From positions 186,001-250,000 of the forward strand of contig NZ_JACYXJ010000007.1 in the NCBI RefSeq assembly GCF_014842925.1: a stretch of 64,000 nt of DNA. The letters are read 5' to 3'. Positions 4,916-22,454 of the stretch are shown piece by piece. This DNA comes from Roseibium polysiphoniae (GTDB lineage: Bacteria; Pseudomonadota; Alphaproteobacteria; Rhizobiales; Stappiaceae). The notes under the pieces are model-generated. The model was not told where the DNA came from. It made no database searches and was given only the letters and a program-made list of their open reading frames with translations. Within the stretch, counting starts at the first letter, position 1; each line of letters begins with the position of its first letter. The position numbers and the translations under genes were made by a program.

Positions 4916-5002
4916 CCGCCCCTAGAAACGGCATTAGGGGTTCCCTAACCATAAACGCGTATGAAATAGCTTTAACAAATGGCGTAAAGCAGGGCCCAAT
5001 TC

Positions 5003-7270
5003 GTGAATAACCCGCCTGAGACAGCTAGGGTCAACACCCAGAACCTCCTCGATTTTCTGGCCATTTTGAGAGTCCTAAGGGCGCGCACGAGATTCATTTT
5101 TCTAACGGCGTTGCTATTCACTCTCATAAGTATCGCAATCACGTTGATGCTAACGCCTGTTTTCACTGCGACGACCGCCGTTCTTATTGATCCCACAATC
5201 AAGCAACCTCTCGACCTCAATCAACAGTCGCGTAGTGCTTTGACCGAAAGTATTCGCATTGATAGTCAAGTTGCGATGCTGCGCTCGGATACGATCCTCC
5301 GTCCTGTCGTTCGCTCGGAGAAACTTATTGATGACACGGAATTCGGGTCTGGCGTGTCCTCTGGGCTAGCCGGCCTGCTACTAGAGGTACTGAGACCGAC
5401 AACCTCTTCAAGGGAGAGCTCCCAACAAGACGCAGAGAACAAAGCACTGAAAGCGCTCGCAGATGCGACAACAGTCAAACGCGACGGCCAAACCTTCATC
5501 CTTTCCATTTCCGTAGATTCCAAAAATCCGTCGAAGGCGGCCCGTCTGTCTGTCGCAATCGCAAACAGTTTTCTAAGCGATCAAAAGCGCCAACTCGAGC
5601 AAGCCTCAAATCAAGTAACATCTCAAATCGAAGATCGACTTATCGGACTGCGTGAGCGGCTGCGGCTTGCCGAGGACAGTGTTCAGGAATTCCGAGCTGA
5701 GAATAACTTGCAGGTTGGAGCAGAGGGCGGGCTCATCACCGAGCAAGCTTTAGCAGGTATCAACAGCAGTCTGATTGAAGCCCGAGGTGCACTAGCGGCG
5801 GCGGAGGCAAAGAACACAGAGATACAACGTCTTCTGCGCCAGGGCGCAGACGCAGAGTCCATCAGCGATGCAATAAACTCTCCAACCATCACGCAATTGC
5901 GCGAACAACACTCCGAAGCTGCCAGAAATGTAGCGAACCTTTCTGCAGCCCTTCTACCATCGCACCCATCTCTGATTATGGCGCGATCGCAGCTTGCCGA
6001 AGTTCAACAACTTATTCGGGATGAAGTCGTCAGGATTGGGGATTCCTCCAAGATATCGCTTAAGGTTGCCCGCGATCGCGTCAACAATCTCGAGGCAGAT
6101 TTAGAAAGTGCTAGGTCGCTCAACAATGTCGATTCAACGGCGAGGATTCGCCTACGCGAGCTAGAGACAGAAGCCATCGCAACCCGCACACTTTATGAAA
6201 ATGCACTTGCTAAGGCCAAACAGATCTCCGCATTGGACCAAGTCGTCGTGCCTGATGCACGTGTCATTTCTCCTGCCGTGGCGCCGGAAAGCCCGACATG
6301 GCCGAAGAAGAAATTGATCGTTGCGCTTGCTGCTGTTTTAGGCGTCCTGGTTGGCTGTTGCGCCGCTATTGGTGGAACAGCACTACGTCTCTTGAAAGCG
6401 AGGCTAACGAACAAATATGAGGTGCTGGCGTACAACAGCGCCTTGTCCACTCGGATGGCTACGAGCGAGAGACAACTTGGCTTGGCAAATGAACAGGCCG
6501 GCGCCGAACCAACCCGAAGAGTTGCGAAGCACATTGACCGGCGGCTTACTACTGCAGCACCTTTATCGATCCTCGGTCGGATTCCCCGCATGATTGACCC
6601 GGAAGCTTTGCGAAGCGGTGTCGCGCGTCAAAGCGAAGAGGTCGACAATGTCCGACATGCTCTAGATCTTTTCTACTATGAAGAGGTTGACGGCCAAGAC
6701 GCTGAATTCGGTCGCGCAATCGAGAAAATCCAAGAACGAATTGATCAACTCGCCGAAGAAACAGATGCTCGCGTTGCGCTGATCACAGCCCCAGACACAA
6801 ACCAGGGTCAAACTATGCTCGCTTTCGCGGTTGCCTTCTCTGGAGCCTGCCGCGGCTTAAAGGTGTTGCTTGTAGACGCCGATCCCCTTCAGAAGGGATT
6901 GACGCGAGATCTGGATGGTGTGGCCGCTCGTCGAAGACAAACATTACAAGAGCGTGTCCGCGAAGACCCAGAACTCGGGATTTCCTTTGTTTCCCTTATT
7001 GCCGGTCAGTCACGCTACAAGCCCTTTGAATTAAGCGGGAAGGCCACACGAGAGCTGGCCCATATCACTCGGAATTACGATCTCACTGTCATCGACGGCC
7101 CGCTCTTACATGATCTTTCCAGCGACGCTCCTTTACTTGCAGTCTCTGATCTATTGCTGGTCGCACTGGCAGAAGAGAGTGAACGTGCGGCATCATCGCA
7201 AGAATTGGCCGCGCGGCTCAACAAGCTCGCAGGCGACCGTCCTCATGCGCTTTTGATGACAGGCTCCTGA
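5003..7270 (+). CDS. Wzz/Wzc-like polysaccharide co-polymerase with degenerate kinase domain
   Basis: 755 residues, GTG start. A first membrane segment lies near 32-50, followed by a Wzz domain and a long coiled-coil region (about 190-420). A proline-rich SPAVAPESPTWPKK and a second membrane segment (about 436-460) come next, then a cytoplasmic BY-kinase-like domain. The kinase domain keeps a Walker A' (VLLVDADP, about 620) and a Walker B (LTVIDGP, about 693). At the P-loop (about 593) it reads APDTNQGQT, without the GKS/T lysine, and no C-terminal tyrosine cluster is present. It should set chain length and help export, but is probably not an active tyrosine kinase. It follows the polymerase by 87 bases. 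Confidence 0.83.
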   Translation: MNNPPETARVNTQNLLDFLAILRVLRARTRFIFLTALLFTLISIAITLMLTPVFTATTAVLIDPTIKQPLDLNQQSRSALTESIRIDSQVAMLRSDTILRPVVRSEKLIDDTEFGSGVSSGLAGLLLEVLRPTTSSRESSQQDAENKALKALADATTVKRDGQTFILSISVDSKNPSKAARLSVAIANSFLSDQKRQLEQASNQVTSQIEDRLIGLRERLRLAEDSVQEFRAENNLQVGAEGGLITEQALAGINSSLIEARGALAAAEAKNTEIQRLLRQGADAESISDAINSPTITQLREQHSEAARNVANLSAALLPSHPSLIMARSQLAEVQQLIRDEVVRIGDSSKISLKVARDRVNNLEADLESARSLNNVDSTARIRLRELETEAIATRTLYENALAKAKQISALDQVVVPDARVISPAVAPESPTWPKKKLIVALAAVLGVLVGCCAAIGGTALRLLKARLTNKYEVLAYNSALSTRMATSERQLGLANEQAGAEPTRRVAKHIDRRLTTAAPLSILGRIPRMIDPEALRSGVARQSEEVDNVRHALDLFYYEEVDGQDAEFGRAIEKIQERIDQLAEETDARVALITAPDTNQGQTMLAFAVAFSGACRGLKVLLVDADPLQKGLTRDLDGVAARRRQTLQERVREDPELGISFVSLIAGQSRYKPFELSGKATRELAHITRNYDLTVIDGPLLHDLSSDAPLLAVSDLLLVALAEESERAASSQELAARLNKLAGDRPHALLMTGS

Positions 7271-7287: not shown

Positions 7288-9021
7288 TCAGCGGCGTTCA
7301 AGGCGTCGGGCGAATTCAAGGAGTTTGGCGGTGACCTCCACCCTGGCCGGAAGTGGACTGAGATTATGGTCAGCATTAGGAACACTGGATAAGTTCACGT
7401 TTGGATAGTTCGACAAACCAGCCGTGCCCGGCCCAAACCAGCTGGACACCTCAAGCAAACCCCGATCACCGTCGCTGTAGACCAATTCGACCGGCGCCCC
7501 GCGTGCTCTAAGTGCCTCCAGTCTGGCATGAAGGATGCGATCTAGCCGATGATGCTTTGAAAAATTTCGAAGTACTGGCGCAAGCTTTTGGTCTGCAACT
7601 TTACCCAACGCTTGAGCAAGTCTTTTTATCGCTCTTGAAATAGGAAGTTCACCAGAAAGCAAACGCTTTAGCTGTCTGGGACTAGCTATTTTGTTTCGAT
7701 AGGTGCTGAGAGTTTGAATAGGTTCTCGAATCGCCTCATCCACGTCTTCGTCTGGATCCCAAACCAGTCTGCGCGCATTGATCAGGAATGCTCCATCGAT
7801 ACGCATATCAAGTTCCGCTGATACGAATGCCTGATATGCTCCACTACATCGTCCGATGATGATGATATTCTCGTAGCATCTTTCAGCTTTCATCCAGTCA
7901 ACCGCGCACTTCACATCGTCATTCTGGCGCTCTGAGTAGAGAACTTGCTCCTGCTGCCCAGGCCAAAGAGGCGTCTCACCGATACCTGCCATGTCCATTC
8001 GCAGTACAGCAAAGCCATCCGTTGCCATTTCTCGAGCAAGGTCGACGGTATAGCGGCCCCACCCACACGAATGATCATACCCCGCGTTCAGAACGATCAA
8101 TCCCGTTCTGGCTTGACTCTCCACGGGCTCACTAAGAACTCCGAAGAACATGGCACCCGGCCCGAACCGGCAAAAGGTTTCTTGAAATCCCTCTCCCTGG
8201 ACTTCTACCTTTGACGGAAATGACTGGCTACGTTCACTAGGCGAGCTATTGGAGGGAAAATGCGTCTTTACCCAAGACAGCATAGATCCAACTGTCTGTT
8301 CAGGCAGACGCGATAACGTAGGATTGGAAATGTAATCGACGTAGCCGTGGAAAGGAATGCGGTCGACCGAGGCACCACTTGAAATCAAATGCTCGGCGAA
8401 TCTTACATCAGCAGGGTTTTCCGGCCGCTCAACGACAAGACTTCGCGATACCATGGGTGCGTCGCCTTTTAAAAGGCTCAGTCCCTTAATCTCACTTGCG
8501 GTGGAGGCAGACAGGACGAAGCCGCCCGCCATAATCCCTCCCTCCGGGCCGTCCGATGCCCCAACAAGAAAAGTCGGCTTCGTCATCGCCGTCCAAGCGG
8601 AAATTTCCCTAAGGTGCGTGCGCCCCTGTGACACCGCGCCGAGGTAAATGATGCCTGCAACATCACGTTTACGCGCGAGGTCTCCCGCGATGAGGCCTCC
8701 GATCCCCTGACCCAAGAGAATGACGCGGGATGGCGCGCAGAGTTCAATGAGCTGATCCAGAGCAGCTTCAGCAGCGTTGCGCCATGCAAATGGATCATCA
8801 ATTGCGTCGCTCGCGATCGCAGAATGGCAAGTTCCCGGGAAGTCAAATCGCAGACACGGATACCCATTTTCCGCAAATTGGTCTGCCATGGTTCTGAAAG
8901 CCTTGCGAGAACACAACTCCTCATAAGCCCAAGGACTTAGCATGAGTATTGCTGTAGAGCCCTCAGCGGCATGAAACATCCCGGCGAGACCATCGAAGAA
9001 CACGGGTGAGGCAACAAACAA
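7288..9021 (-). CDS. Double alpha/beta-hydrolase domain protein, exopolysaccharide-linked
   Basis: 577 residues holding two alpha/beta-hydrolase units. It starts with TTG at 9021 behind GGGAAG. In unit one the nucleophile elbow reads GQGIG (104-108), so the usual Ser is Gly. In unit two it is GRCSG (390-394), with Cys 392 in the nucleophile position. A late His in NADHNLSPL could complete a catalytic pair. The Cys elbow resembles what I recall of exosortase-A-associated hydrolase 1, and the double arrangement recalls the hydrolase pair of those exopolysaccharide loci. No exosortase or PEP-CTERM protein is seen here. It ends 17 bases from the convergent co-polymerase gene. Substrate unknown; an acyl or sugar-ester substrate is a guess. 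Confidence 0.72.
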   Translation of the reverse strand: MFVASPVFFDGLAGMFHAAEGSTAILMLSPWAYEELCSRKAFRTMADQFAENGYPCLRFDFPGTCHSAIASDAIDDPFAWRNAAEAALDQLIELCAPSRVILLGQGIGGLIAGDLARKRDVAGIIYLGAVSQGRTHLREISAWTAMTKPTFLVGASDGPEGGIMAGGFVLSASTASEIKGLSLLKGDAPMVSRSLVVERPENPADVRFAEHLISSGASVDRIPFHGYVDYISNPTLSRLPEQTVGSMLSWVKTHFPSNSSPSERSQSFPSKVEVQGEGFQETFCRFGPGAMFFGVLSEPVESQARTGLIVLNAGYDHSCGWGRYTVDLAREMATDGFAVLRMDMAGIGETPLWPGQQEQVLYSERQNDDVKCAVDWMKAERCYENIIIIGRCSGAYQAFVSAELDMRIDGAFLINARRLVWDPDEDVDEAIREPIQTLSTYRNKIASPRQLKRLLSGELPISRAIKRLAQALGKVADQKLAPVLRNFSKHHRLDRILHARLEALRARGAPVELVYSDGDRGLLEVSSWFGPGTAGLSNYPNVNLSSVPNADHNLSPLPARVEVTAKLLEFARRLERR

Positions 9022-9229: not shown

Positions 9230-10147
9230 TTGGGACACATCACGATTGCAATCGCTAGCGTTGGACGAGAGACTCTCGCGGAAACCTTGATATCCCTTTC
9301 AAAGATTGCGTGCCTTCCCGGTAAGAACTTAACCGTTTTGGTCGCGGATGATTCGAAGGATCAAGCGGCGGCCCGACTAATTGCTAGGCTCCGTCTGGAA
9401 GACCTAGACATAAAATGTATTCCAGTTGCTTCAGGCAATATATCCATTGCTCGAAATGCACTCCTTGATCAGACAGAGGGCGAGTGGATTGTTTTCGTAG
9501 ACGACGACGAATGGGTGGAAAGAGATTGGCTAATTCGGTTGTTTGAATGTCAAAATGACTACAACGCCGACGTTGTCATTGGACCGGTGTATCCGGTTTA
9601 TCCAAACGATGCACCGGGTTGGCTCGTAAGAGCAAATCCGCTCTATGCTGACTGGGGACATCGCGGCAAGCGACTGACCACTGGACGAGGCGGCAATACA
9701 CTCGCAAGGATGTGGTTTATCCGACAGCACGCCTTGCGTTTCGATCCAGCTCTCGGGAGGTCCGGCGGTGAAGACACTGCCTTCTTCGCAAACGCTGCGG
9801 CTCGAGGGGCGGTGATTGTGGCGACAGATGATGCAATCGCGCGTGAGCATGTGCCACCGGAACGGCTTGAACCTGACTACATCCTTCGTAGAGGCATCCG
9901 TTCCGGCCAGTCATATGCCAATTCCCGAAAATTGAAGAATCCAGGCCTGCTATGGCAATTTCAGTTCGGAGGTGATGCCGTTGCCAAATGCACTATCGCT
10001 GCCATCCTAGCTTTGGCATTAAGGCCCGTTGATCGCGCCCGCTCCTTCCGGATGAAACAGAAGCTGGCATTGAACCTCGGCAAATTGAGAGCCTTGTTCA
10101 ATTTGCCGTTGGCGCAGCTCTATGCCGCAAATAATCAGACAAAATAG
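9230..10147 (+). CDS. Glycosyltransferase family 2 (exopolysaccharide, ExoM/ExoO-like)
   Basis: 305 residues with a GT-A fold. The start is TTG at 9230 with CCGGAG about nine bases upstream; the protein then begins directly with the first beta strand (ITIAIASVGR). LVADDSKDQ and VFVDDDEWVE supply the nucleotide-sugar and metal-binding aspartates, and SGGEDTAFF is the catalytic-region ED motif. No membrane segment is clear, so it should act in the cytoplasm on lipid-linked intermediates. It resembles succinoglycan-type GT2 enzymes. Its end overlaps the convergent deacetylase gene by 13 bases. It is divergent from the hydrolase gene across a 208-base gap in which I see no gene. Confidence 0.83.
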   Translation: MGHITIAIASVGRETLAETLISLSKIACLPGKNLTVLVADDSKDQAAARLIARLRLEDLDIKCIPVASGNISIARNALLDQTEGEWIVFVDDDEWVERDWLIRLFECQNDYNADVVIGPVYPVYPNDAPGWLVRANPLYADWGHRGKRLTTGRGGNTLARMWFIRQHALRFDPALGRSGGEDTAFFANAAARGAVIVATDDAIAREHVPPERLEPDYILRRGIRSGQSYANSRKLKNPGLLWQFQFGGDAVAKCTIAAILALALRPVDRARSFRMKQKLALNLGKLRALFNLPLAQLYAANNQTK

Positions 10148-10830
10148 CGCAATCTTCGCAATTGTGCATACGCTGTGCCTTTCCAGATCTGCTTGACACT
10201 TAAACGTTGAGGCAAGTCGAGCTTCGGATCGAAATTCTGCTTTACCGACCATCGCGGCCGGAACCATGCATTGTCGTAACAAAGACCGGCAGTGCTTGTG
10301 GATACTTTCCCATATCCGCCTTCTTTCAATGCAGCCAGAACACGTCGATCAAACAGGCCAAAGGGAATAGCCGCCTCGGTGACACCAATTCCCGCGACAT
10401 CCTCGATCTTGCGTCGCGCGTCGTATAGCTCCTGTTTTCGGCCCGCATGGTCGAGCTTTCTCCAATCCACATGATTCCAACCATGACTGCCAATTGTCAT
10501 GCCAGAAGCGACCATATCGCGAATGTGCTTCCCCCTTAGGTAACCCTGCTGCCCAATTCGGCCTGCCAAGACAAAAAAATGCCCAGTCCGCCCAACATCC
10601 AGCAAAGCCGGTACGCCCACCTGATAGTCCGATAAATTACCATCGTCGAAAGTAATGCAAATCTGATTTCCAGAGTTACCTTCAAGTTCCTCAAGCGCAT
10701 AAATCGTGCGCCGATAAGTATCAACAGTTACAAAATAACCCTCCTCGCCTTCACTTAACTTAGTGACAGGCTCACCAATGCCATGAAATGTTAGGAAAAG
10801 GGTTCTAGCCAACATATTTTGCGCCACCAT
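10135..10830 (-). CDS. Polysaccharide deacetylase (NodB homology domain)
   Basis: 231 residues. The NodB fold is shown by ITFDDGNLSDYQ (catalytic base and metal-binding aspartates), GSHGWNHVDW (the H-x3-H metal motif) and AAIPFGLFD near the third motif. No signal peptide is obvious. ATG 10830 and ATG 10815 are both possible; the second has a better ribosome-binding site (GGTGG eight bases before). The family removes N- or O-acetyl groups from sugars. With the WcaF-like acetyltransferase in the same locus, acetyl tailoring of the exopolysaccharide is the natural reading. The 200 bases upstream, toward the flippase gene, form a divergent promoter region. Confidence 0.85.
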   Translation of the reverse strand: MVAQNMLARTLFLTFHGIGEPVTKLSEGEEGYFVTVDTYRRTIYALEELEGNSGNQICITFDDGNLSDYQVGVPALLDVGRTGHFFVLAGRIGQQGYLRGKHIRDMVASGMTIGSHGWNHVDWRKLDHAGRKQELYDARRKIEDVAGIGVTEAAIPFGLFDRRVLAALKEGGYGKVSTSTAGLCYDNAWFRPRWSVKQNFDPKLDLPQRLSVKQIWKGTAYAQLRRLRYFV

Positions 10831-11031: not shown

Positions 11032-12318
11032 ATGTGCCCGACCACATCCGGGAAACTTGCTTCCAAAATAGGAACCGTCATCAACCAGGCCCGCCAGTCC
11101 AGCCTGGTTGCCAATACGCTTTCCTACACAGTGAATTTCGGGCTACAGCTCGTCATCCAATTAGGTTTCTTCATGCTTGTTTCCCGTACCCTCGGCGCCG
11201 AGGGCTACGGCATTTTTGTAAGCATCACTAGCGTTTCGATTATTTCCGGAATCATTATCGGTGTTGGCAGCGAATACCTTTTGGTTCAAAGAACCGCGGT
11301 CGATCCCAGTGCGTTTCCGCGGTACTTCGGCCACGCGCTGATCATGATGACCCTCACACTGCCACTTGTTGCGATTCCGACGATCACCTTCCTGCATTAT
11401 CTCGTTGGGGACGCAGTTGGGCTTGTCCCCCTCACCATCATTTCCCTCACAGATCTAATCTTCACAAGGTTTATTGTTCTGGCTGGTCAGGCCTACATGG
11501 CATTCGACAAAGCTAACAAACAGCTCTTGATCAACATCCTGATGGCAGCTTCAAAGCTGATTTTCTTAGCGATCGCCGCGTCTTTGATCAAAGATCTGAC
11601 AATTACCGACTGGGCTTGGTGGTTTTTTGCGTCAGGCGTCCTCTCAGCGACCTTCGCGGCAGCGATGGTCCTGCGCGATCTTGGACGTCCGATCTTTGGA
11701 ATTTTAAAGAACGAACTGAAACTTGGCGGCCTCTATTGTATTGAATTTCTTGCAATAGGCGGCATGAAGGATCTGGATAAACCTGTGGTCGTCCACGCGC
11801 TTGGTCCAGAATTAGGCGGCCAGTATGCTGCCGGTTTTCGGATTATTGATGCGGCCTCGGCCCCCGTCCGCGCATTTCTTTACGCGACCTATACCCGACA
11901 TTTCCGGCATGCCACAGCGGGACGAGAGAACAGCTATGCCTTCGGGTTGAAGCTTTTGCCTCCGGCGGTCGGACTTGCGCTTCCTGTCGCGATCGGTCTC
12001 TTTTTAATTGCTGACTATATTCCACTCGTGCTTGGCGACGATTTCGCCGGAACATCGGGAGTAGTCAAATGCCTAGCCTTTTACCCTCTTTTAATGGGGC
12101 TATCAGGTATCGGTGCCGACCTACTTCGCGCAATTGGTAGCCAAAAAACCCGCATGGCTTTGCTGATAGCCAGCAGCATTGCGCTGATTCCGATGGTCTG
12201 GTTCGGATCGAAAATGGGAGGGCTCGTTGGCGCGGCGCTGCTGCGCTTCGCACTACAGACCCTGCTAAGCTTTTTGACTTGGGGGGCCATCTTGGTCACA
12301 AAGAAACGAGGTTCCTGA
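11032..12318 (+). CDS. Wzx-type oligosaccharide flippase
   Basis: 428 residues with about 12 to 14 membrane segments, starting in SYTVNFGLQLVIQLGFF and with LGAEGYGIF, a typical turn after the first helix pair of the polysaccharide transporter (MATE/MOP) superfamily. It should flip undecaprenyl-diphosphate-linked repeat units to the periplasm, upstream of the Wzy-like polymerase at 3599. It is transcribed alone, divergent from the deacetylase, and ends 34 bases before the convergent GH2 gene. The family is clear; the substrate is inferred from the locus. Confidence 0.85.
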   Translation: MCPTTSGKLASKIGTVINQARQSSLVANTLSYTVNFGLQLVIQLGFFMLVSRTLGAEGYGIFVSITSVSIISGIIIGVGSEYLLVQRTAVDPSAFPRYFGHALIMMTLTLPLVAIPTITFLHYLVGDAVGLVPLTIISLTDLIFTRFIVLAGQAYMAFDKANKQLLINILMAASKLIFLAIAASLIKDLTITDWAWWFFASGVLSATFAAAMVLRDLGRPIFGILKNELKLGGLYCIEFLAIGGMKDLDKPVVVHALGPELGGQYAAGFRIIDAASAPVRAFLYATYTRHFRHATAGRENSYAFGLKLLPPAVGLALPVAIGLFLIADYIPLVLGDDFAGTSGVVKCLAFYPLLMGLSGIGADLLRAIGSQKTRMALLIASSIALIPMVWFGSKMGGLVGAALLRFALQTLLSFLTWGAILVTKKRGS

Positions 12319-12352
12319 TCACGACGTTTGGCGAAGCCCCTTGCAGACTCCA

Positions 12353-14821
12353 CTATGATTTGACGATGACGGCGTTTCCAGCTGAAATCGCTTTTATCAC
12401 GCCAGCAGGACAGCCGCGATCGCCTTGAAGCCTCACTTTCTTCAAAGCACCTGGAGCCAGATGAAACCAGTCGTCAGACGGAACGAAACCATCAAGTTCC
12501 AGATGAACGAAGCGTGCCGTCTGAGTTGAACCGAGGCTCAATGTCCAGATCCCATCTCTTTCTTCTGAGAGTCCTGCTTCAATGTCCAACGGCCATTGAA
12601 GCGTCTCAAATCCGCCAGGAAAATGAAACGCCTCGGCAACGATCTCCTCGCTCTCGGGATCGGTTAGGCGCGCGACTGTGACGTCATGGGCTGGTGGCCC
12701 GAAACGGTAGGCGTAGGTGGTGTCGAAAAACGCTCCGAAGAGGTCGGTTGCTGCAAGTTCCTGATTGCTGTGAGCGGGAAGCGTCATCTCGCGCTGACCC
12801 GACACCACAGGCGTTGCTCCGTCGCGAAGACAGGTCAGGGTCAAAACAAGATCGCGGGATCGACCCGTGTCGTTGATCACATGGACTGCCAGTCCATTTG
12901 TGCCTTCGTCGGTCAGGTTGACGGTGACAGGTCGGAATGCTCGTTTCAGGGCATAATACGCCGGCTTCGGTACGCCAGTTGAGTCGACAAGACCCCATCC
13001 CGCGCCTGGCATCAGATCCTGATAGGTCCAGACAAGTGCCCCCTTGCAGGTGGATCGCGCACGGCGCCACTCCGCAAATGTCGTTTCCATGATCTCGCCG
13101 GTCAATGCACGCGACAGGTCCAAGTACCTCTCCGGATCGCAATAGCGCAGCTCCGCCGGGTCGATGCCATAGTGCGCCTTGAGGTAATGATCGCGCACAT
13201 CCTCAAAGTCCCAACCGGCACCGCGGTCACGGGGTATGCGTTCTTTCCAGCGAGGGTCATGCCCCGGTTTGACAGGCAAGTGCCTCTCGAGTGTCGCAGC
13301 CTCCGGTACATTCGAAAAGGCTAGGCACTCAGCCGCAAAACGCACTTCTGCGCGACGTGCATCTTCAAGTGGCCGCTGATAGGCGCCGACACCGTAATAG
13401 TGGGCAATGCCCTCATTCGCCGAGAACGGCAGAGCGCCTTGGCAAGGCGAGTTCTCGACATAGGGCACATCCGCACGAAACTCAGCAGCGACATTCGCAA
13501 GGATCTCCGTACACAGGGGCCCCTTCCAGCGTTCTTCCGGCAGTCCCATCATGGCGCCTTGCTGGTAAATCTCGCTGCCCCCGCACAGTACCCCGAGGGA
13601 CGGGCATCCCTGCGACCGCAAAAGCTGCTGCCGAGCCTCGGTGCGGACGCTTTCGACAAATGCCTCGTCCTTGACGGGATAGTCGTAGTTGGCGAATTGA
13701 AAATCCTTCCAGACCAGAATGCCAAGTTCATCACAGAGTTCAAAAAAGGCGCGAGACTCATAGACCATGGTGCCGCCGATGCGGAGCATGTTCATGCCTG
13801 CATCGCGGGCGAGTTCCAGCAGGTGACGGTAGCTTTCTATGTCCCCCGACAAGTTCAGGAGATCCGCTGACGTCCAAACTGCACCGCGACAAAATACAGA
13901 CACACCGTTGACAACAAGGCCGAAGCCTTTGCCGTCGTCGCCACGATCCACCGCGATGGTCCGGAATCCTGTCTTCCCGAGATCGATCTTCTCGCCACCG
14001 ACGTCAATATAGACTGCATGTAGCGTCGGCTCACCATGGGTATGCGGCATCCAGGGAGCGATGTCTGGCAAAAGCAACTCGCCGTGATATCGATCGCTGG
14101 AGGTACGTGTCAGACGCGCTTTTTTTCCGGCGCATTGCAAGTAAACCTCGCTTGCAGTGCCTGCCAATGCCAGGTCGACTTCCAGAACGCCACAGCCTGC
14201 CTCATACAGGCCAGCCGTCATGCGGAGACCTTCGGCTCGAAGATTGCTTGGTTCGATCAGGCTAATCGGCCTCCAGGGACCGACTGCATGGATCTTGGGA
14301 CACCAGCCCGGCATATGGCCCAGCAGCGTCGTCCTGACCAAACGCAGTCCTTGAGAGGTCGCCAGTTGAGGACGCCAGCGGGCGCGAGGCCCTTTGTGCT
14401 CAAGATGAGGTGCCAAGGCGCGGAAGCAGATCGCGAGCTCATGCTTCCCCGATAGATCGACTTCGACCGCCTGCCGCAAAAACATGTTGTCCGAATATGC
14501 GATGTGAACGCCATCCAGATAGATCTCGGCAAGCGTCGCAAGGCCATCGAAAACAAGCTCACGCTTGCCCGGCGTCTCAACCGGCAGCGGCACGACGTAC
14601 CAGGCATCCTTATCGTGCAGCGGAGACGGTTTTTCAGGATCATAGAGACCAGCGGCGGCCAAGGTTCCAGCAACCGTTCCAGGAACGCTGGCCTCAACCC
14701 AACCTGATGCGCCCGAAAGATCTGGCGGTTCCGGAAAGGCATTTGCGTCCGTCAACAGGAGGCGCCAACCCTCGGTAAGTTCGGTGACCCGGTCACCGGA
14801 TACAGACAAGGCGAGAGACAT
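12353..14821 (-). CDS. Glycoside hydrolase family 2, beta-mannosidase-like
   Basis: 822 residues. An N-terminal jelly-roll sugar-binding domain (with VPGTVAGTLAAAGL, typical of beta-mannosidases) is followed by Ig-like domains and a TIM barrel. The acid/base Glu is in VLCGGSEIYQQG and the likely nucleophile in RFAAECLAFSNVPE. GALVWTYQDLMPG and GWGLVDSTGVPKPAYY mark the barrel end. No signal peptide is seen, so the protein appears cytoplasmic. It lies two bases after the DUF1839 stop, last gene of the carrier-protein operon. The family removes terminal beta-mannosyl or related residues. Association with an amino acid:carrier protein ligase suggests a glycan or glycoside intermediate, which is inference. 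Confidence 0.83.
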   Translation of the reverse strand: MSLALSVSGDRVTELTEGWRLLLTDANAFPEPPDLSGASGWVEASVPGTVAGTLAAAGLYDPEKPSPLHDKDAWYVVPLPVETPGKRELVFDGLATLAEIYLDGVHIAYSDNMFLRQAVEVDLSGKHELAICFRALAPHLEHKGPRARWRPQLATSQGLRLVRTTLLGHMPGWCPKIHAVGPWRPISLIEPSNLRAEGLRMTAGLYEAGCGVLEVDLALAGTASEVYLQCAGKKARLTRTSSDRYHGELLLPDIAPWMPHTHGEPTLHAVYIDVGGEKIDLGKTGFRTIAVDRGDDGKGFGLVVNGVSVFCRGAVWTSADLLNLSGDIESYRHLLELARDAGMNMLRIGGTMVYESRAFFELCDELGILVWKDFQFANYDYPVKDEAFVESVRTEARQQLLRSQGCPSLGVLCGGSEIYQQGAMMGLPEERWKGPLCTEILANVAAEFRADVPYVENSPCQGALPFSANEGIAHYYGVGAYQRPLEDARRAEVRFAAECLAFSNVPEAATLERHLPVKPGHDPRWKERIPRDRGAGWDFEDVRDHYLKAHYGIDPAELRYCDPERYLDLSRALTGEIMETTFAEWRRARSTCKGALVWTYQDLMPGAGWGLVDSTGVPKPAYYALKRAFRPVTVNLTDEGTNGLAVHVINDTGRSRDLVLTLTCLRDGATPVVSGQREMTLPAHSNQELAATDLFGAFFDTTYAYRFGPPAHDVTVARLTDPESEEIVAEAFHFPGGFETLQWPLDIEAGLSEERDGIWTLSLGSTQTARFVHLELDGFVPSDDWFHLAPGALKKVRLQGDRGCPAGVIKAISAGNAVIVKS

Positions 14822-14823
14822 CT

Positions 14824-15822
14824 TCAGGCTGCTTCGCAGCTGGGCTTGGCAAAACGATCGTCAAGGGAAGAGGTCAACTCGTCCCATGCCGTTATGGCAG
14901 GCTCAAGTGCGGGCTGAAGCTTGTCGAATTTCTTGCGCATGACAGCACGCGCCAACTGGAATTGAACTGTCTTACAGGTCGTAGAGATGCGACGCGCTGC
15001 GTCTGCAGGCGCATCCAGTCTCACAACGCCGTTGCGACCGAGCCAATCAAGGTGAGCAGAGAAAAGCTCAAAATTGGCTCCGAGCTGGCGCAGCGTGTTG
15101 AACGCATACAGATGGAAAAACTCGAACGGACGCTCGGCGACCTCCTCCACCTGGCAAGGGAAGACCTCAGCAAAGGCAGCAACCGGATTGTGCTCGGGAC
15201 GCTTTGCCAGATAGGCCGCGAGCAGCGCTTGCGAGCGTTCAACCAGCTCTGACGCGCCGATGTTTGCCTCAGGCAGCTTGACGAACTCGGTGTAGGGCAA
15301 AAACGGCAGGTCGCGTGCATGGGCATCGCGCTGGAAGACGCCGTCAAAGTCGTCACCCTCGAGGTGATGAAGTCCAAGACCGTGGAAGTAGTCCATCGTC
15401 CGGTTTTCGATGTCGAGCCGGTTGATCGCTATCGTCGTCTTGCCGTGAGACTGATGGTATCCGACGCCTTGCGTATCGGGGAGGAAATAGCTGTCGACTT
15501 CCACGAGTGACAGGCGGCCACGGCGGATCTGCTCCAATACGTGGATCTCGACCCGATCGTAGATAGCAAGTTCGGTGACTTTGAGACCATAAAGGCTTTC
15601 CAGGTCTTCGAGCGGCACTTTGAAAAAAGTGAACTGATCGCCCTCGAAATCCTGCATGACGGAATAGGCCAGACAAGCTTCCGGCGGCAGGCCGAGCGCT
15701 GGCAGAACCTCAAGCCATACGTCGAGGTAACAATTTGTCTCCGGCCAATCCCGCTCAGCAGAATGCAGCGCATGTCGAACATAGGAGGCCGGATCCAGAC
15801 CCGGAAAGATCTTATCTGCCAT
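14824..15822 (-). CDS. DUF1839 family protein
   Basis: 332 residues matching, from memory, the DUF1839 family. Recognisable parts are the N-terminal DPASYVRHALHSAERDWPE, YLDVWLEVLPALG, and a central motif DSYFLPDT followed by GYHQSHGKTTIAI. The family has no established function and was noted mainly beside amino acid:[carrier protein] ligase genes. Conserved Asp, Tyr, Ser and His residues around 120-145 make an enzyme plausible, perhaps a transferase that accepts the aminoacyl group from the carrier. It starts at ATG 15822 behind GAGGGGACACT and follows the ligase gene by 16 bases in a clear operon. Confidence 0.8.
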   Translation of the reverse strand: MADKIFPGLDPASYVRHALHSAERDWPETNCYLDVWLEVLPALGLPPEACLAYSVMQDFEGDQFTFFKVPLEDLESLYGLKVTELAIYDRVEIHVLEQIRRGRLSLVEVDSYFLPDTQGVGYHQSHGKTTIAINRLDIENRTMDYFHGLGLHHLEGDDFDGVFQRDAHARDLPFLPYTEFVKLPEANIGASELVERSQALLAAYLAKRPEHNPVAAFAEVFPCQVEEVAERPFEFFHLYAFNTLRQLGANFELFSAHLDWLGRNGVVRLDAPADAARRISTTCKTVQFQLARAVMRKKFDKLQPALEPAITAWDELTSSLDDRFAKPSCEAA

Positions 15823-15838
15823 AGTGTCCCCTCACCAC

Positions 15839-16747
15839 TCAGCCCCAAAGGGCGGAGCGAACGCTATTTGGCCATGCATTCACATCGAAACCGTGGTGGC
15901 GGAAAAGCGCCAGTGCAAGGCGCTCAAGCCCGAAGCCCACACAGGCTGTATGGGCTGGTGAGCCGTCAGCTTGCTGGATGTTCCAGGCCTTGCCGAAGTT
16001 ATCCATGTGATAGTTGAAACTCATGCAGGCAGTCGGGTTTGCGCCTGAGTTGACAGGGATCACGAGTTCAAACTTCAACTCCTGCTCGCGTTGGCTCGCG
16101 CCCATCATCCGGCCAACACGGCCGAAAAACGGATCGTTCGCGACCTCGACCTCATGAGGGAGCTCCAGAATCCTCATCATCTCCTGGCCGCGCTGCTTCC
16201 AGGTTTCCCGGAACTCAATCGTCTGTTCTTCGGTGCCGACACGAACATATTCGCGCTGGCGGAACATCTGCATCCGCGTCGGTTCCTTGGACGGCTCATT
16301 GCGGAAGCAGTAGGACTGAAGAGCAACGTAGGCTCCAGCTTCCGGCAGACGTCCTCGGCGGGCGAGGATCGGATAAAGCGGATAACAGGCAGCCGGCGTC
16401 AGGGCGACATCGGTCTTTTTCTGACTTTCTGACCAGTCCTCGCCAGCTGCCATGCATTGGATCAGACCCATGTGGTCATGGTCGCTGCCGCAAAAGGCAT
16501 GAACTGTGCCCGCCAACTGCGGGAAATTCTTCATATAGCCACTGGTTTCAAAATCGGTAAGCGGCATTCCCGGCGGAAAGACCATCGCCTCGGAAATCTC
16601 ATCCTGACCGAAGCTCAGCGCGAACTCTTCAAATCGCGAAATGACATCTTCGAAGGCCGCACTGCGCGCATAAAGGCCATCAACACCGCTGTCGTGCAGA
16701 ATACCCTGATTGAAAAGCTGATCGAGAAACGAAACCTGAGCGTCCAT
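15839..16747 (-). CDS. Amino acid:[carrier protein] ligase (class II aminoacyl-tRNA-synthetase-like)
   Basis: 302 residues, only the catalytic core of a class II (SerRS-like) synthetase with no tRNA-binding domain. Motif 2 is FRNEPS (148-153) with TRMQMFRQREYVRVG after it; motif 3 is GFGLERLALALF (271-282). Cys 121 (AACYPLYP), Glu 151 or a neighbour, and Cys 269 (TACVGFG) are candidates for the active-site zinc ligands known in this family. The Bradyrhizobium homologue activates glycine or alanine and passes it to the phosphopantetheine arm of a small carrier protein rather than to tRNA (Mocibob and co-workers). The carrier gene lies two genes upstream. Which amino acid is used here is not shown. 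Confidence 0.9.
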   Translation of the reverse strand: MDAQVSFLDQLFNQGILHDSGVDGLYARSAAFEDVISRFEEFALSFGQDEISEAMVFPPGMPLTDFETSGYMKNFPQLAGTVHAFCGSDHDHMGLIQCMAAGEDWSESQKKTDVALTPAACYPLYPILARRGRLPEAGAYVALQSYCFRNEPSKEPTRMQMFRQREYVRVGTEEQTIEFRETWKQRGQEMMRILELPHEVEVANDPFFGRVGRMMGASQREQELKFELVIPVNSGANPTACMSFNYHMDNFGKAWNIQQADGSPAHTACVGFGLERLALALFRHHGFDVNAWPNSVRSALWG

Positions 16748-16752
16748 CTGAT

Positions 16753-17934
16753 CTATCCTAAAAGGCTGGTATCTTGTTTGTTGACCAAGAGCATTGTTGA
16801 CGTATTGCCGAGAATGCGGTCGTTCGAAATCATCAGCTGCGCAGAATGTGCGTCGCGCAGATGACGGCCGAGACTGAAGGGTGTTCCGTTCTTATAGGCG
16901 GCAATTCCGCAAATCAGCATGCAATGATTGATGATCGTCAGGATCATTTGGGAGGTACCGACCTTGATGTTGTTCATGGCGACAGAGAAGCTCATCGCAT
17001 TCAACGCATCGGCATCGCCCTTGGCGGCTTCGAACTGCTTCAGGCCCGCGACCACATTGGCCTTGACCTGCTGCAAGAGGTTCGACGCTTCTGCCAGTCG
17101 CAGTGCGCCTGGAGGTGTCTGGCCGGGGGACTTGCGGGCAGCCGCCTTGACGAATGCCTGAGACCGCGCGAGCGCATCAGCTGCGATGCCATACCAGAGT
17201 GCGCCCCACAGCAGGTGCGAGACCGCAAGCATGGATTGCGCGGCGATTTCCGCAAACGGCTTCGGCAGGATTTGCTCCGCAGGGGCTTCTGCCTTGAAGA
17301 TGTAACCGTCTGAACATGTTCCGCGCATGCCGAGCGTGTCCCAGACGGAGGTACGCTCAAGTGAGTATTGCTCCTTCAAGAACAGCGTTGCGATCTGATC
17401 GGAGTGTGGCGCATCGGCATTTCGCCGAGAGGTCACGATGATAGCGTCTGCCATCGCTCCGTAGGAGATAACGGTCGCATTCTTTTCAAGCCGCGCCGTT
17501 TCACCGTCGAGATCCATGGCACAGATGGAATTGCGAAGGTTCCCTCCGATCCCAGCCTCACTGGTCGCCGACGCGATCAGAAGCTGTTCATCACAGATCC
17601 GCTTTAGAAATGCCTCATGCCATGCGCTGCCAACAGCGTAGTCAGCGAGACTTGCAATCTGGATCTGATGCATGGCGTAGGTCATCGCGGTCGAAGCGCA
17701 GGCTTGGCCAAGGATCGCACATAGATCGGCGATCTCGGTCATGCTGGCAGCTTCGCCGCCAAGCTCCGGACGGATCATGACACCCATGAGACGCTCAGCC
17801 TTCAGAGCGTCCATGCCTTCACGCGGAAAGCGGCCCTCGGCATCAACGCGGTCCGCAAATTCTGCGGCCACCTTCGCCGCGCGACGAGCGCGCTCCGCGA
17901 GGGTCATGGCCGAAACCGGGCCTGCAATATTCAT
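16753..17934 (-). CDS. Acyl-CoA dehydrogenase-like flavoprotein
   Basis: 393 residues. The start at ATG 17934 follows the carrier-protein TGA by one base and gives a normal N-terminus (MNIAGPVSAMTLAERARR). The acyl-CoA dehydrogenase fold is shown by FPREGMDALKAERLMGV, CASTAMTYAMHQIQ, SATSEAGIGGN, WDTLGMRGTCSDGY and a C-terminal GRHLRDAHSAQLM. Where classical enzymes carry the catalytic Glu in a YEGT motif, this one reads ISNDRILGNTS, so the base differs or the reaction does. Relatives oxidise prolyl groups held on carrier proteins in antibiotic pathways. By analogy it may oxidise the aminoacyl-S-carrier made next door. It lies five bases before the ligase. Confidence 0.82.
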   Translation of the reverse strand: MNIAGPVSAMTLAERARRAAKVAAEFADRVDAEGRFPREGMDALKAERLMGVMIRPELGGEAASMTEIADLCAILGQACASTAMTYAMHQIQIASLADYAVGSAWHEAFLKRICDEQLLIASATSEAGIGGNLRNSICAMDLDGETARLEKNATVISYGAMADAIIVTSRRNADAPHSDQIATLFLKEQYSLERTSVWDTLGMRGTCSDGYIFKAEAPAEQILPKPFAEIAAQSMLAVSHLLWGALWYGIAADALARSQAFVKAAARKSPGQTPPGALRLAEASNLLQQVKANVVAGLKQFEAAKGDADALNAMSFSVAMNNIKVGTSQMILTIINHCMLICGIAAYKNGTPFSLGRHLRDAHSAQLMISNDRILGNTSTMLLVNKQDTSLLG

Positions 17935-17935
17935 C

Positions 17936-18205
17936 TCAAGCGACCTGGCGATCTTCAGTGATTTGGGAAAGCGCATCGGCGATGGATGCAATCGAAGAGA
18001 ATGACTTCCGATTGAGAAGGTTCTCGGGGAACTCGACGTCAAACTCTTCCTCAAGCGCAAGCATCAGCTGCACCGATGCAAAGGAAGACAGCCCCGCTTC
18101 ATAGAGATCATCGGCATCGGCCAGCTTGTCCACTGTGATAGGAAGACCGCCGTGTTTGGACAGCAATTCGCGGATCGTAGAATTCATGATGCTATTCCCT
18201 GTCAT
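17936..18205 (-). CDS. Small acyl/aminoacyl carrier protein
   Basis: 89 residues from ATG 18205, chosen because GGGGAGG lies five bases upstream; in-frame TTG 18220 and ATG 18187 are less likely. A four-helix carrier is indicated by DLYEAGLSSFASVQLM and ALEEEFDVEFPE. Aligned to AcpP by the ALEEEFD helix, Ser 41 takes the place of the phosphopantetheine serine, and the usual DSL is SSF. That change marks it as a dedicated carrier, not the fatty-acid AcpP. It is the first gene of the operon and the expected partner of the amino acid ligase at 15839. The phosphopantetheinyl transferase is not in the window. Confidence 0.88.
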   Translation of the reverse strand: MTGNSIMNSTIRELLSKHGGLPITVDKLADADDLYEAGLSSFASVQLMLALEEEFDVEFPENLLNRKSFSSIASIADALSQITEDRQVA

Positions 18206-19876: not shown

Positions 19877-20943
19877 GAGTCGAGCTCCAAGATCCTGGCG
19901 AACGCCATTGCTGCGTCGTCCCATGTCGGCAGGGTCTTGCTGCTGGCCCAGGCCGCCATGCCTAACTTCTTTCGTTCGTTGGAGCACTTCAGCAGTTTCT
20001 CCAATGCGCCTCGAAGCTGGCCGACATCCTCGACCCCGCAATAAATCGCCCCATCTCTCGCAAGAGTTTCCCCGACAGCTCCCGCACCGCTTCCAAGGAC
20101 GGGCAACCCATGGGACAGAGCCTCTGTGAACGCCATGCCGTAGCCCTCATAGCGGCTCGCGAGGACAAACACATCGGCAGCAGCGTAAAACCCCGACAGC
20201 TTGGCGGCGTCAACGGCGCCGTGAAAACGCACGCGATCGGAGAGTGAGAGTTCGCGGAGTTGCGCCGACAGTTGTGAAAAGCAGTTCTTGTCGCGACTTG
20301 TATCTCCGACAATGCCCAGGTGCCAATCGTACGCTTTGAGGTCCGAAAGTGCCTCAAAAAGGAGGTCGTAACCCTTTCGCTGAACGATCGTGCCGACGGA
20401 CAACAGGCAAACCGGTCCTTCATCTCGATACGCGTTCTCCTGCGCGCGGTCGGTCCCTGGCTCGACCACGTGCAACCGATCCTCGGAAACCTCGAAGAGA
20501 TCGCGGACCTGATCTCCTGTCGCGGAGCTCGTTACGATGACGCGGCGGGCGAATTGCAAAGCTGTTTTTTCGCCCTCCTCAAGAGCCTTGGCCGTTGCTG
20601 CGTCGATGCCATTTTCCTTACACAGAGGATGGTGAACCAATGCGATCAGCTCGACATTGTCCGCCGCGCTGGCAACAGCTTTCGCGAGCACGCCAAACGC
20701 CAACCCGTCAACGATGACGCGCGAGCCCTCCGGCAGGCTGTTCAGACGCCGACTGGCCTGATCGAGTGTTTCACGTGTTGGAAACGGGAAGCCCTCGCCG
20801 AGCTCCAGCAGCTCAACGTCCCAGCCAGCATCGCGCAGGCCAGAAATGATCCGGCGATCGTATCCATATCCACCAGTCGGCGTGTCCAAATCACCCGGAT
20901 AGGCGAAATAGACCAGCTGGCGTTGCCTGTCAGGTTCTAGCAT
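19873..20943 (-). CDS. Glycosyltransferase family 4
   Basis: 356 residues, GT-B fold. The N-terminal glycine-rich loop is in TPTGGYGYDRRI. The C-terminal domain has LLSVGTIVQRKGYDLL and ASRYEGYGMAFTEALSHGLPVLGS, with the E-x7-E pair that binds nucleotide-sugar. It begins at 20943, overlapping the end of the pterin-synthase-like gene by one base, and overlaps the methyltransferase by four. It lies well away from the exopolysaccharide locus, in a compact operon. A small-molecule acceptor such as a pterin is therefore as likely as a polysaccharide, though this is inference. Confidence 0.82.
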   Translation of the reverse strand: MLEPDRQRQLVYFAYPGDLDTPTGGYGYDRRIISGLRDAGWDVELLELGEGFPFPTRETLDQASRRLNSLPEGSRVIVDGLAFGVLAKAVASAADNVELIALVHHPLCKENGIDAATAKALEEGEKTALQFARRVIVTSSATGDQVRDLFEVSEDRLHVVEPGTDRAQENAYRDEGPVCLLSVGTIVQRKGYDLLFEALSDLKAYDWHLGIVGDTSRDKNCFSQLSAQLRELSLSDRVRFHGAVDAAKLSGFYAAADVFVLASRYEGYGMAFTEALSHGLPVLGSGAGAVGETLARDGAIYCGVEDVGQLRGALEKLLKCSNERKKLGMAAWASSKTLPTWDDAAMAFARILELDS

Positions 20944-21374
20944 CAGGCGATAGACGCTTCATACCAGGCGCGGGCGACGTGAGACTCAGAAATGGTGACT
21001 CTCAAGCTGTCTAACTCGGTGCCAACACGTCCCAGACGGTCTTCCCGCGCCGCTTTGGCAAGGTGGTCGTGAATATGCTTGGTCAGGAACTCGGTTGTCG
21101 TGTTGATGCCTTCAAATTCGGGCACGTCATCGAGATTCTTGTAGTTCAGCGGCTCAAGAACTTCCTTCAAGGCCTCGTGTGCGCGTCCGATATCGATGAC
21201 AACGCCATTGCTGTCGAGTTCTTTCGACATGAAGGCTGCATCAATCACAAAAGTGGCGCCATGCAGTGCCTGCGCTGGTCCGAAAAGCTCACCCTTGAAG
21301 GAATGAGCGATCATGACGTGATCTCTAACTTCGACTGCAAACATTGGCTCTGAATTTCCTTGGTTTTGGCTCAC
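20943..21374 (-). CDS. 6-pyruvoyl-tetrahydropterin synthase / QueD-fold protein lacking catalytic residues
   Basis: 143 residues of the T-fold family, overlapping the dehydrogenase stop by ATGA. Family marks are MIAHSF (H24), the HG pair (H38-G39), KNLDDVPEFEGINTTTEFL and SESHVARAWYE with the pterin-binding Glu region (about E130). Key positions are changed. The zinc-binding HGH reads HGA, the catalytic Cys region (FGPAQAL) has no Cys, and the LDHKNL motif that carries the catalytic Asp-His reads LNYKNL. It may still bind a pterin or purine-like ring, but it should not catalyse the PTPS or QueD reaction in the usual way. The adjacent genes suggest a dedicated pathway role. Confidence 0.78.
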   Translation of the reverse strand: MSQNQGNSEPMFAVEVRDHVMIAHSFKGELFGPAQALHGATFVIDAAFMSKELDSNGVVIDIGRAHEALKEVLEPLNYKNLDDVPEFEGINTTTEFLTKHIHDHLAKAAREDRLGRVGTELDSLRVTISESHVARAWYEASIA

Positions 21375-22357
21375 GAGTAGACCAGCACTGGCGCAAGCGC
21401 ATCTAACTGACCAGTCAATATTTCGGGAAGACGGTGTGGTGCTTCTTCAAATGGTATGCGGTGACTTACTAGGAGATCTAGCGCGGGATCCCTTAGAAGC
21501 GAGAGGGCAACGCCAAGACGGCGGCGGTAGTTCCATCTCGCCTGCCGAGCAACGGGAATGGTCCCGACTTGGCTGGACTTCAGGCTCAGTCTGCGCGCAT
21601 GAAAGTCGGCGCCAAGTGGCACGGACACGGATGTTGCCCCGTACCAGCTCATCTCGACAACCGTCGCTCCGTCTCCGGCTGCTTTCAACGCCGTCTCCAA
21701 TCCCGCTGCCTGCGCACTCGTATGAAAAACCAAATCCTGATCCGCAGGTGCGCCTTCGGGTTTGGCGAAGTCGAAACCCAGTGTCTCTGCAAGGACAGCA
21801 CGCGCGTCGTTGACGTCCACCAACGTCACGTTTGTGGCTGGAATCCTTGCCGCGAGATAGGCCGTCAGCAGGCCGACTACGCCGCCCCCGACCACGCAGA
21901 TGTGATCCCCAGGTGAAGGCAATCCATCCCATAAAGCATTGAGAGCAGTCTCCATATTGGCTGCGAGGACTGCCCGTTCTGCCGGAACCCCGTCAGGCAG
22001 AATGTGCAATTCGTTCAGTGAGGCATTGAAGTGCGTTTGATGTGGAAACAGACCAAAGACGAATTCGCCAATGTGCTGATGGGGCCCGGTCTCGACCTGG
22101 CCGACACAAGCGTATCCATACTTGACCGGAAACGGGAACTCTCCATCTTGATGCGGCGCGCGCATACGATGCCACTCGCTCTCGGGCACGCTTCCCCGGA
22201 AAACCAGTCCCTCTGTTCCCCGGCTAACCGCGCTGTTGATCGTGCGAACGCGGAGCTGTCCGGTCGCAAGTTGCGGCAAATCCTGATCACGAATTTCGCA
22301 GATTTCCTTCGCGCTGTACCAAAGTGCTCTAGCCATACTGTTTCTTTTTTCGGTCAT
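21371..22357 (-). CDS. Zinc-type alcohol dehydrogenase-like (MDR) oxidoreductase
   Basis: 328 residues from ATG 22357, preceded by GGTGATTTC; the next in-frame ATG (22336) has a poor ribosome-binding site. The N-terminal GroES-like domain contains NSAVSRGTEGLVF and PVKYGYACVGQVE, and the Rossmann domain has ICVVGGGVVGLLTAY with VTLVDVNDARA as the acidic end of the second strand (NAD preferred). The usual cysteine-rich structural-zinc lobe is absent. It is the first gene of a tight operon followed by the pterin-synthase-like gene. Substrate unknown. Confidence 0.82.
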   Translation of the reverse strand: MTEKRNSMARALWYSAKEICEIRDQDLPQLATGQLRVRTINSAVSRGTEGLVFRGSVPESEWHRMRAPHQDGEFPFPVKYGYACVGQVETGPHQHIGEFVFGLFPHQTHFNASLNELHILPDGVPAERAVLAANMETALNALWDGLPSPGDHICVVGGGVVGLLTAYLAARIPATNVTLVDVNDARAVLAETLGFDFAKPEGAPADQDLVFHTSAQAAGLETALKAAGDGATVVEMSWYGATSVSVPLGADFHARRLSLKSSQVGTIPVARQARWNYRRRLGVALSLLRDPALDLLVSHRIPFEEAPHRLPEILTGQLDALAPVLVYS

Positions 22358-22454
22358 GAAATCACCGCAGGGTTGAACTACGTCACTGGACGATCCGTAA
22401 GCACCGTTGACAATTGCACTATTGCGAAGCAATCCGGTTTTGAAAGTCACATTT

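Follow-up and report, generated by a model that had tools for sequence, protein, structure and literature searches.

What does an operon make that brings a carrier protein and an amino acid-loading ligase together with a glycoside hydrolase? The question is raised by positions 12,353 to 18,205 of a 64,000-nucleotide stretch of Roseibium polysiphoniae contig NZ_JACYXJ010000007.1 (the window, to which all coordinates refer unless another locus is named), where the minus strand carries five genes. In transcription order, these are as follows:

17936-18205, minus strand: carrier protein of 89 amino acids (aa; PP-binding, PF00550, 35 bits; NF005480, 118 bits vs a cut-off of 72)
16753-17934, minus strand: flavoprotein with acyl-CoA dehydrogenase fold (ATG internal to a longer frame; Acyl-CoA_dh_N, 39 bits)
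15839-16747, minus strand: amino acid:[carrier protein] ligase of 302 aa (NF005479, 482 bits vs a cut-off of 357; PDB 3mey, E 1.5e-90)
14824-15822, minus strand: DUF1839 protein (PF08893, 433 bits)
12353-14821, minus strand: GH2 glycoside hydrolase of the beta-mannosidase branch (Glyco_hydro_2_N2, 57 bits; PDB 5n6u, 2vjx)

We posit, at a probability of roughly one half, that the operon N-aminoacylates a sugar by carrier loading, oxidation and transfer through DUF1839, with surface polysaccharide as the destination in some lineages and the GH2 enzyme in a clean-up role. A preliminary description of the locus had reported five same-strand genes with gaps of 1, 5, 16 and 2 bases in transcription order, and the open reading frame (ORF) list and family matches bear this out. 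A Shine-Dalgarno-like GGGGAGG stops 4 bases short of the carrier ATG at 18205.

The five-gene set is kept together across many soil and marine bacteria. Among the named loci compared, which are the best 80 of at least 516 relatives, 76 carry carrier, flavoprotein, ligase, DUF1839 and GH2 in this order on one strand, three lack the ligase and one lies on a cut contig. A set of 113 loci, which counts some genomes twice, contains the full ordered set in 105 cases, the ligase being missing in six, with one cut contig and one lone second DUF1839 copy. All five genes also occur, identically ordered, at the Agrobacterium loci L078, L114 and L126. In a close-kin sample of 61 genomes (the own genome and 60 relatives), DUF1839 is present in 26, and an operon-type GH2 (at least 48% identity) occurs in the same 26, four further genomes having only GH2 matches of 31% or less. 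The flavoprotein was found in these 26 genomes and in G051, the ligase in 22 of them and likewise in G051, where both ligase and flavoprotein share 47% identity with those of the window and DUF1839 is absent. Within a broad sample of 398 Pseudomonadota, all 16 genomes with DUF1839 also have a ligase match of at least 490 bits. Failure of the five genes to co-occur elsewhere had been named beforehand as a refutation; the named loci and the complete GH2-DUF1839 pairing show that they do co-occur. Six GH2 matches of the 61-genome scan contain the flag '1 TGA', which is probably the DUF1839 stop read in-frame ahead of the GH2 start; one of the six was checked, and its GH2 alignment (L080, genome G033) is stop-free.

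The AlphaFold model of DUF1839 (predicted local distance difference test, pLDDT, 86) has the carrier-dependent enzymes CcbD, CtaG and AziU3 as full-length fold neighbours. Cys31 is found in 112 of 113 loci, taking the best copy per locus, and conservation is similarly high for His147 (113/113), Thr129 and Thr130 (both 112/113) and His126 (110/113). The predicted fold supports a papain-like, CcbD/CtaG-like carrier-dependent acyl (amide-forming) transferase with Cys31 as the putative nucleophile, in agreement with the earlier proposal of DUF1839 as a candidate transferase.

One genus has two genomes in which the in-operon DUF1839 carries Gln or Arg in place of the Cys and lacks the KTT motif, and a second DUF1839 copy, next to a ManC gene in both, retains Cys and motif (L134, 6937-7866 plus strand and 11762-12697 minus strand; L135, 8477-9409 plus strand; L136, 223-1038 minus strand).

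The carrier retains its phosphopantetheine-attachment residue Ser41 (in GLSSF) in all 111 carrier matches among the 113 loci. Acyl-CoA dehydrogenases place their catalytic Glu either after the RDA motif or on helix G. Both places are empty in the operon flavoprotein, which has Ile371 at the place of Glu376 of medium-chain acyl-CoA dehydrogenase (MCAD) and Ser, Ala or Cys at 241, the helix-G place (each 111/111); they are also empty in four distant operon relatives and in five relatives from a second locus type described below. His242, Trp245 and Trp249 are invariant (111/111). The own genome has nine PF00441 matches, namely the operon gene and eight others (L187 was mis-extracted and dropped); among the other family members, six have Glu at the MCAD-376 place and one has it on helix G. 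Fold matches did not discriminate between dehydrogenase and monooxygenase. Because ColB1, an assembly-line cysteine dehydrogenase, is among them, oxidation of a carrier-bound amino acid, of the dehydrogenase kind, has a precedent in this fold, and monooxygenation by the redox enzyme is predicted in the accessible text of PMC2922099. The best reading is that the flavoprotein oxidises a carrier-bound amino acid, oxygenation being more likely than acyl-CoA-type dehydrogenation. The initial label 'acyl-CoA-dehydrogenase-like' thus fits family and fold but not the catalytic Glu, which is missing at both known places.

The closest solved relatives of the GH2 protein are beta-mannosidases (PDB 5n6u, 2vjx). 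Glu417 and Glu498, kept in 112 of 112 cases, align with Glu residues of the Bacteroides beta-mannosidase 2vjx that we take to be its catalytic acid/base and nucleophile. Judged by its sequence, the protein is a glycoside hydrolase of the beta-mannosidase branch with both catalytic Glu kept, and inspection by eye revealed no obvious signal peptide.

The ligase matches only positions 313-503 of the 518 positions of the serine--tRNA ligase model NF002120 and is, on this alignment, a class II synthetase catalytic core without the tRNA-binding domain. Loading of Gly or Ala onto a carrier has been reported for the family (PMC5370406, accessible text). A second ligase type (350-385 bits) is present in 12 other genomes of the 398 Pseudomonadota, where 16 further matches are weak, none exceeding 138 bits. 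Inspection of seven of these 12 loci found the flavoprotein beside the ligase in all seven, a carrier-like match in five and DUF1839 or GH2 in none. Because the second-type loci have the former genes without the latter, there seem to be two modules, one made of carrier, flavoprotein and ligase, the other of DUF1839 and GH2. That the flavoprotein accompanies the ligase whatever genes come after suggests that it acts on the loaded carrier. Bradyrhizobium Bll0957 (PDB 3mey) is 61-96% identical to the seven second-type ligases and 48-50% to seven DUF1839-type ligases. As its identity to the window ligase is about 48% and its nearest loci lack DUF1839 and GH2, the amino acid of the Bradyrhizobium ligase, on which the first reading of the operon had relied, does not simply transfer to the window. 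A 2010 PNAS study on these ligases reportedly also assayed a ligase from Agrobacterium, which would belong to the operon type described here. In the second-type loci L180 and L181, an Abhydrolase_3 protein lies downstream, and L180 also has an AMP-binding enzyme.

What the analysis shows is the gene set, its order and co-occurrence, the conservation of catalytic residues and the predicted DUF1839 fold; from these we infer a pathway with the following reactions, amino acid, acceptor and product. The ligase would activate a small amino acid (by analogy Gly or Ala) and load it onto the carrier phosphopantetheine, where the flavoprotein would oxidise it, oxygenation being more probable than acyl-CoA-type dehydrogenation. 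Cys31 of DUF1839 would then accept the acyl group, which would be transferred to an amino sugar at its amino group, comparable to CcbD with carrier-bound proline. In some lineages at least, the product would become part of a surface polysaccharide, and the apparently cytoplasmic GH2 enzyme would cleave a beta-glycoside of the same sugar as trimming or clean-up.

The genomic surroundings bear on the destination. Besides glycosyltransferases, the window contains near the operon:

11032-12318, plus strand: Wzx-type polysaccharide flippase (PF01943, 28.8 bits vs a cut-off of 28.2)
10135-10830, minus strand: NodB/HfsH-like polysaccharide deacetylase (PF01522, 66 bits; TIGR04243 NodB, E 1e-7, far under cut-off)
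7288-9021, minus strand: tandem alpha/beta hydrolase, like exosortase-A-associated hydrolases 1 and 2 (TIGR03100, 99 bits; TIGR03101, 50 bits; both below cut-off)
5003-7270, plus strand: Wzz/Wzc-type chain-length protein (TIGR01005, 201 bits, below cut-off; for 3599-7270, PF04932, PF02706 and PF13807)
3599-4915, plus strand: Wzy-like polymerase/ligase (the PF families given above for 3599-7270)

The deacetylase, which has no apparent signal peptide, could free the acceptor amine on the sugar; of 100 loci, 12 have it close to the operon (8 among the 80 named). Polysaccharide genes recur at other loci, including Wzx-type and GumK-like genes at L058 (Roseibium denhamense), a Bac_transf gene at L034, and Wzx, GumK-like and glycosyltransferase family 4 (GT4) genes at L129 (Agrobacterium vitis). 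In family f87, L137 has GT4 and Wzy-like genes on one flank and a Crp-type regulator, Wza and Wzc on the other, and L134 has Bac_transf, ManC, Wzc and the tandem hydrolase. Across 13 chosen DUF1839 loci, 112 flanking ORFs included Wzz (4), GNVR (4), Wzy_C (4), Bac_transf (2) and Glyco_trans_1_4 (5); all five are absent from the 25 of 82 families shown for 70 hand-picked flanking ORFs of the seven second-type loci. The ORFs counted at DUF1839 loci are mechanical calls of at least 150 aa, some of them surely shadow ORFs, and the tally is a small sample with no significance test.

Several points weigh against the proposed aminoacylation. No acceptor for the transfer is known, and the accessible literature on DUF1839, on the Atu2571-2574, bll0957 and bll6282 loci and on the ligase contains no assay or mutant of an operon-type flavoprotein, DUF1839 or GH2. 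DUF1839 and CcbD match in fold at 11% identity, and a shared fold is no proof of reaction; phmmer and an 18-sequence DUF1839 profile run against the PDB returned no CcbD or CtaG relative, only weak matches (E of at least 0.05). The triad is modelled as Cys-Thr/Ser-His in PMC10318531 (accessible text), which groups DUF1839 with papain-like families of rearranged triad and proposes a role in glycan processing, and this modelled non-canonical arrangement counts against a CcbD-like reaction. Four Roseibium genomes (G006, G027, G033 and G034) give no ligase match, with the other four genes present. Gene-by-gene typing of four loci from Rhizobiaceae or Brucella found polysaccharide genes in one (L129); L076 (Rhizobium freirei) is flanked by sugar-transport, Gfo/Idh/MocA, EpmA-like and radical SAM genes, L078 (Agrobacterium rubi) by ThiC, transport and other genes, and L097 (Brucella pecoris) has, among genes of such kind, the tandem hydrolase alone. 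Since the flanks carry polysaccharide genes at some loci and not at these three, a polysaccharide destination is likely for some lineages and open for others. To speak of a complete pathway, as had been done, is too strong, given that the operon has no acceptor-making gene and that the four genomes above lack the ligase. A sequence-based link between DUF1839 and CcbD or CtaG was dropped, the relationship being visible by fold only.

The same flanks are where a different product has to be weighed, namely a small diffusible aminoacyl-sugar or amide of the lincosamide or butirosin kind, from which the GH2 enzyme would strip a protecting sugar last; in butirosin biosynthesis, BtrG removes a protecting amino acid. 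The small-molecule pathways of CcbD and CtaG, among the closest folds, the three typed flanks without a polysaccharide cluster and the lack of an obvious GH2 signal peptide would all suit such a product, but one or another of Wzx, Wzy, Wzz/Wzc, Bac_transf, ManC, GumK-like and Wza adjoins loci in four families, and we consider it rather unlikely. DUF1839 could also act as a hydrolase (thioesterase or peptidase) that frees the modified amino acid from the carrier, making a free oxidised amino acid derivative the product. Papain-like folds are mostly hydrolytic, and the rearranged-triad grouping points the same way, yet the full-length fold neighbours are carrier-dependent enzymes and not peptidases, and a glycosidase partner in 26 of 26 genomes points to a sugar; this reading appears distinctly unlikely.

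The ligase-less loci (L017 in G027, L026 in G033, L027 in G006 and L195 in G034) raise the further alternative that another enzyme loads the carrier with something other than Gly or Ala, at least in Roseibium, the ligase being accessory or a back-up. In a tree of flavoprotein, DUF1839 and GH2 with 21 rows, the ligase must have been lost four separate times, always within one 13-row Roseibium clade. Assembly gaps are ruled out as the cause, because the junctions lie inside contigs, G034 is a single contig and L080, in the same genome as L026, retains an apparent C-terminal ligase remnant. Low ratios of nonsynonymous to synonymous substitution (dN/dS) in the remaining genes say nothing about selection after the loss, because the four losses are separate and their time is not datable (the GH2 row L027-L024, with 7 aligned codons, was ignored). 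A substitute loader is the obvious guess. A PF00587 search of three ligase-less genomes gave 4, 4 and 5 matches vs 4 in ligase-bearing genomes and found no substitute, which is uninformative because the known ligase went unlisted even in G000. Against a different loader stand the ligase in every DUF1839 genome of the broad sample and in most of the close kin, and losses that may be recent, with the remaining genes about to decay; we regard it as the least probable of the readings, and the four losses offer natural strains for seeking a substitute. In one of the three genomes, a 677-aa frame lying some 57 kb away from the operon holds an additional class II synthetase-like match (G006:C64:103236-103874) that the other two lack.

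Other neighbours recur as well. Relatives of the tandem hydrolase form one cluster that is present in 40 of the 84 loci clustered. Many Roseibium loci share, upstream of the operon, a block made up of a 6-pyruvoyl-tetrahydropterin-synthase-like gene, a dehydrogenase, and GT4 and methyltransferase genes (in the window, 20943-21374 and 21371-22450). An EpmA-like class II synthetase and an EpmB-like radical SAM gene, named by analogy and with Pfam run on the L076 pair only, lie directly upstream of the carrier gene at L016 (3881-5991), L076 (4945-7268), L129 and L145, in two families; a small gene beside the pair in three of these four loci may be EF-P.

With N-aminoacylation of a sugar retained as the preferred reading, the initial operon interpretation stands in gene co-occurrence and in a DUF1839 transferase by fold, and needs amendment in the Bll0957 amino acid, the dehydrogenase label, completeness and priority. 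The end product had been presented as undescribed to its author's knowledge; the core of the idea was printed in 2010 in a note added in proof (PMC2922099, accessible text), which describes this neighbourhood and predicts that Atu2574 ligates, through an amide bond, an amino acid to the amine of a sugar at the cell surface; the role of amino acids on these carriers remains unknown according to the accessible text of PMC9437257. The present analysis adds a fold like that of CcbD, the absence of the Glu, a division into two modules by which the use of Bll0957 is put right, a pair of paralogues without the Cys, and the losses of the ligase. More tentatively, and with doubt prevailing, the operon may represent a new machine class in which a synthetase-derived loader, a Glu-less flavoprotein and a rearranged-triad CcbD-like transferase put oxidised Gly or Ala on amino sugars of surface polysaccharide in a Nod-factor-like manner, a deacetylase freeing the amine and a dedicated carrier supplying the acyl group, with another enzyme having taken over loading in one Roseibium clade.

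Since PMC2922099 describes the same neighbourhood, the window operon is an orthologous member of the Atu2574-type predicted system. In the accessible text, both share a paralogous seryl-synthetase ligase, an acyl carrier protein, a redox enzyme, a conserved ORF, a glycosidase and liposaccharide genes, and no essential difference between them was seen; the 2010 prediction was made from gene neighbourhood, with no fold named for the ORF. The Bradyrhizobium Bll0957 locus shares the adjacent flavoprotein and ligase, and in most such loci a carrier-like match, and differs in its divergent ligase and missing second module. Closthioamide CtaG and azinomycin AziU3/U2 differ from the operon in their substrates, and AziU3/U2 makes an aziridine ring, not an amide. 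Butirosin BtrH (PF14399) is, in the accessible text, likewise a papain-like ACP:aminoglycoside acyltransferase, but its match to DUF1839 is not significant (BtrH_N was listed for one of five proteins tested, at 12.8 bits vs a cut-off of 29.7). Lincosamide synthetase (CcbD/LmbD, carrier CcbZ/LmbN, CcbC/LmbC) resembles the operon in that a Cys-dependent protease-like enzyme, whose fold is a nearly full-length match to DUF1839, joins a carrier-bound amino acid to an amino sugar. It differs, as far as its accessible description goes, in loading by an adenylation domain, in a named condensation set without glycosidase or acyl-CoA-dehydrogenase-like enzyme, and in a Cys-His-Glu triad vs the Cys-Thr/Ser-His modelled for DUF1839. 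With DUF1839 placed next to CcbD, what was guessed from gene neighbourhood becomes a definite reaction, open to assay with purified proteins; if true, carrier-dependent acylation of amino sugars would reach beyond rare antibiotics and be a conserved trait in many alphaproteobacteria and in some bacteria of a further class.

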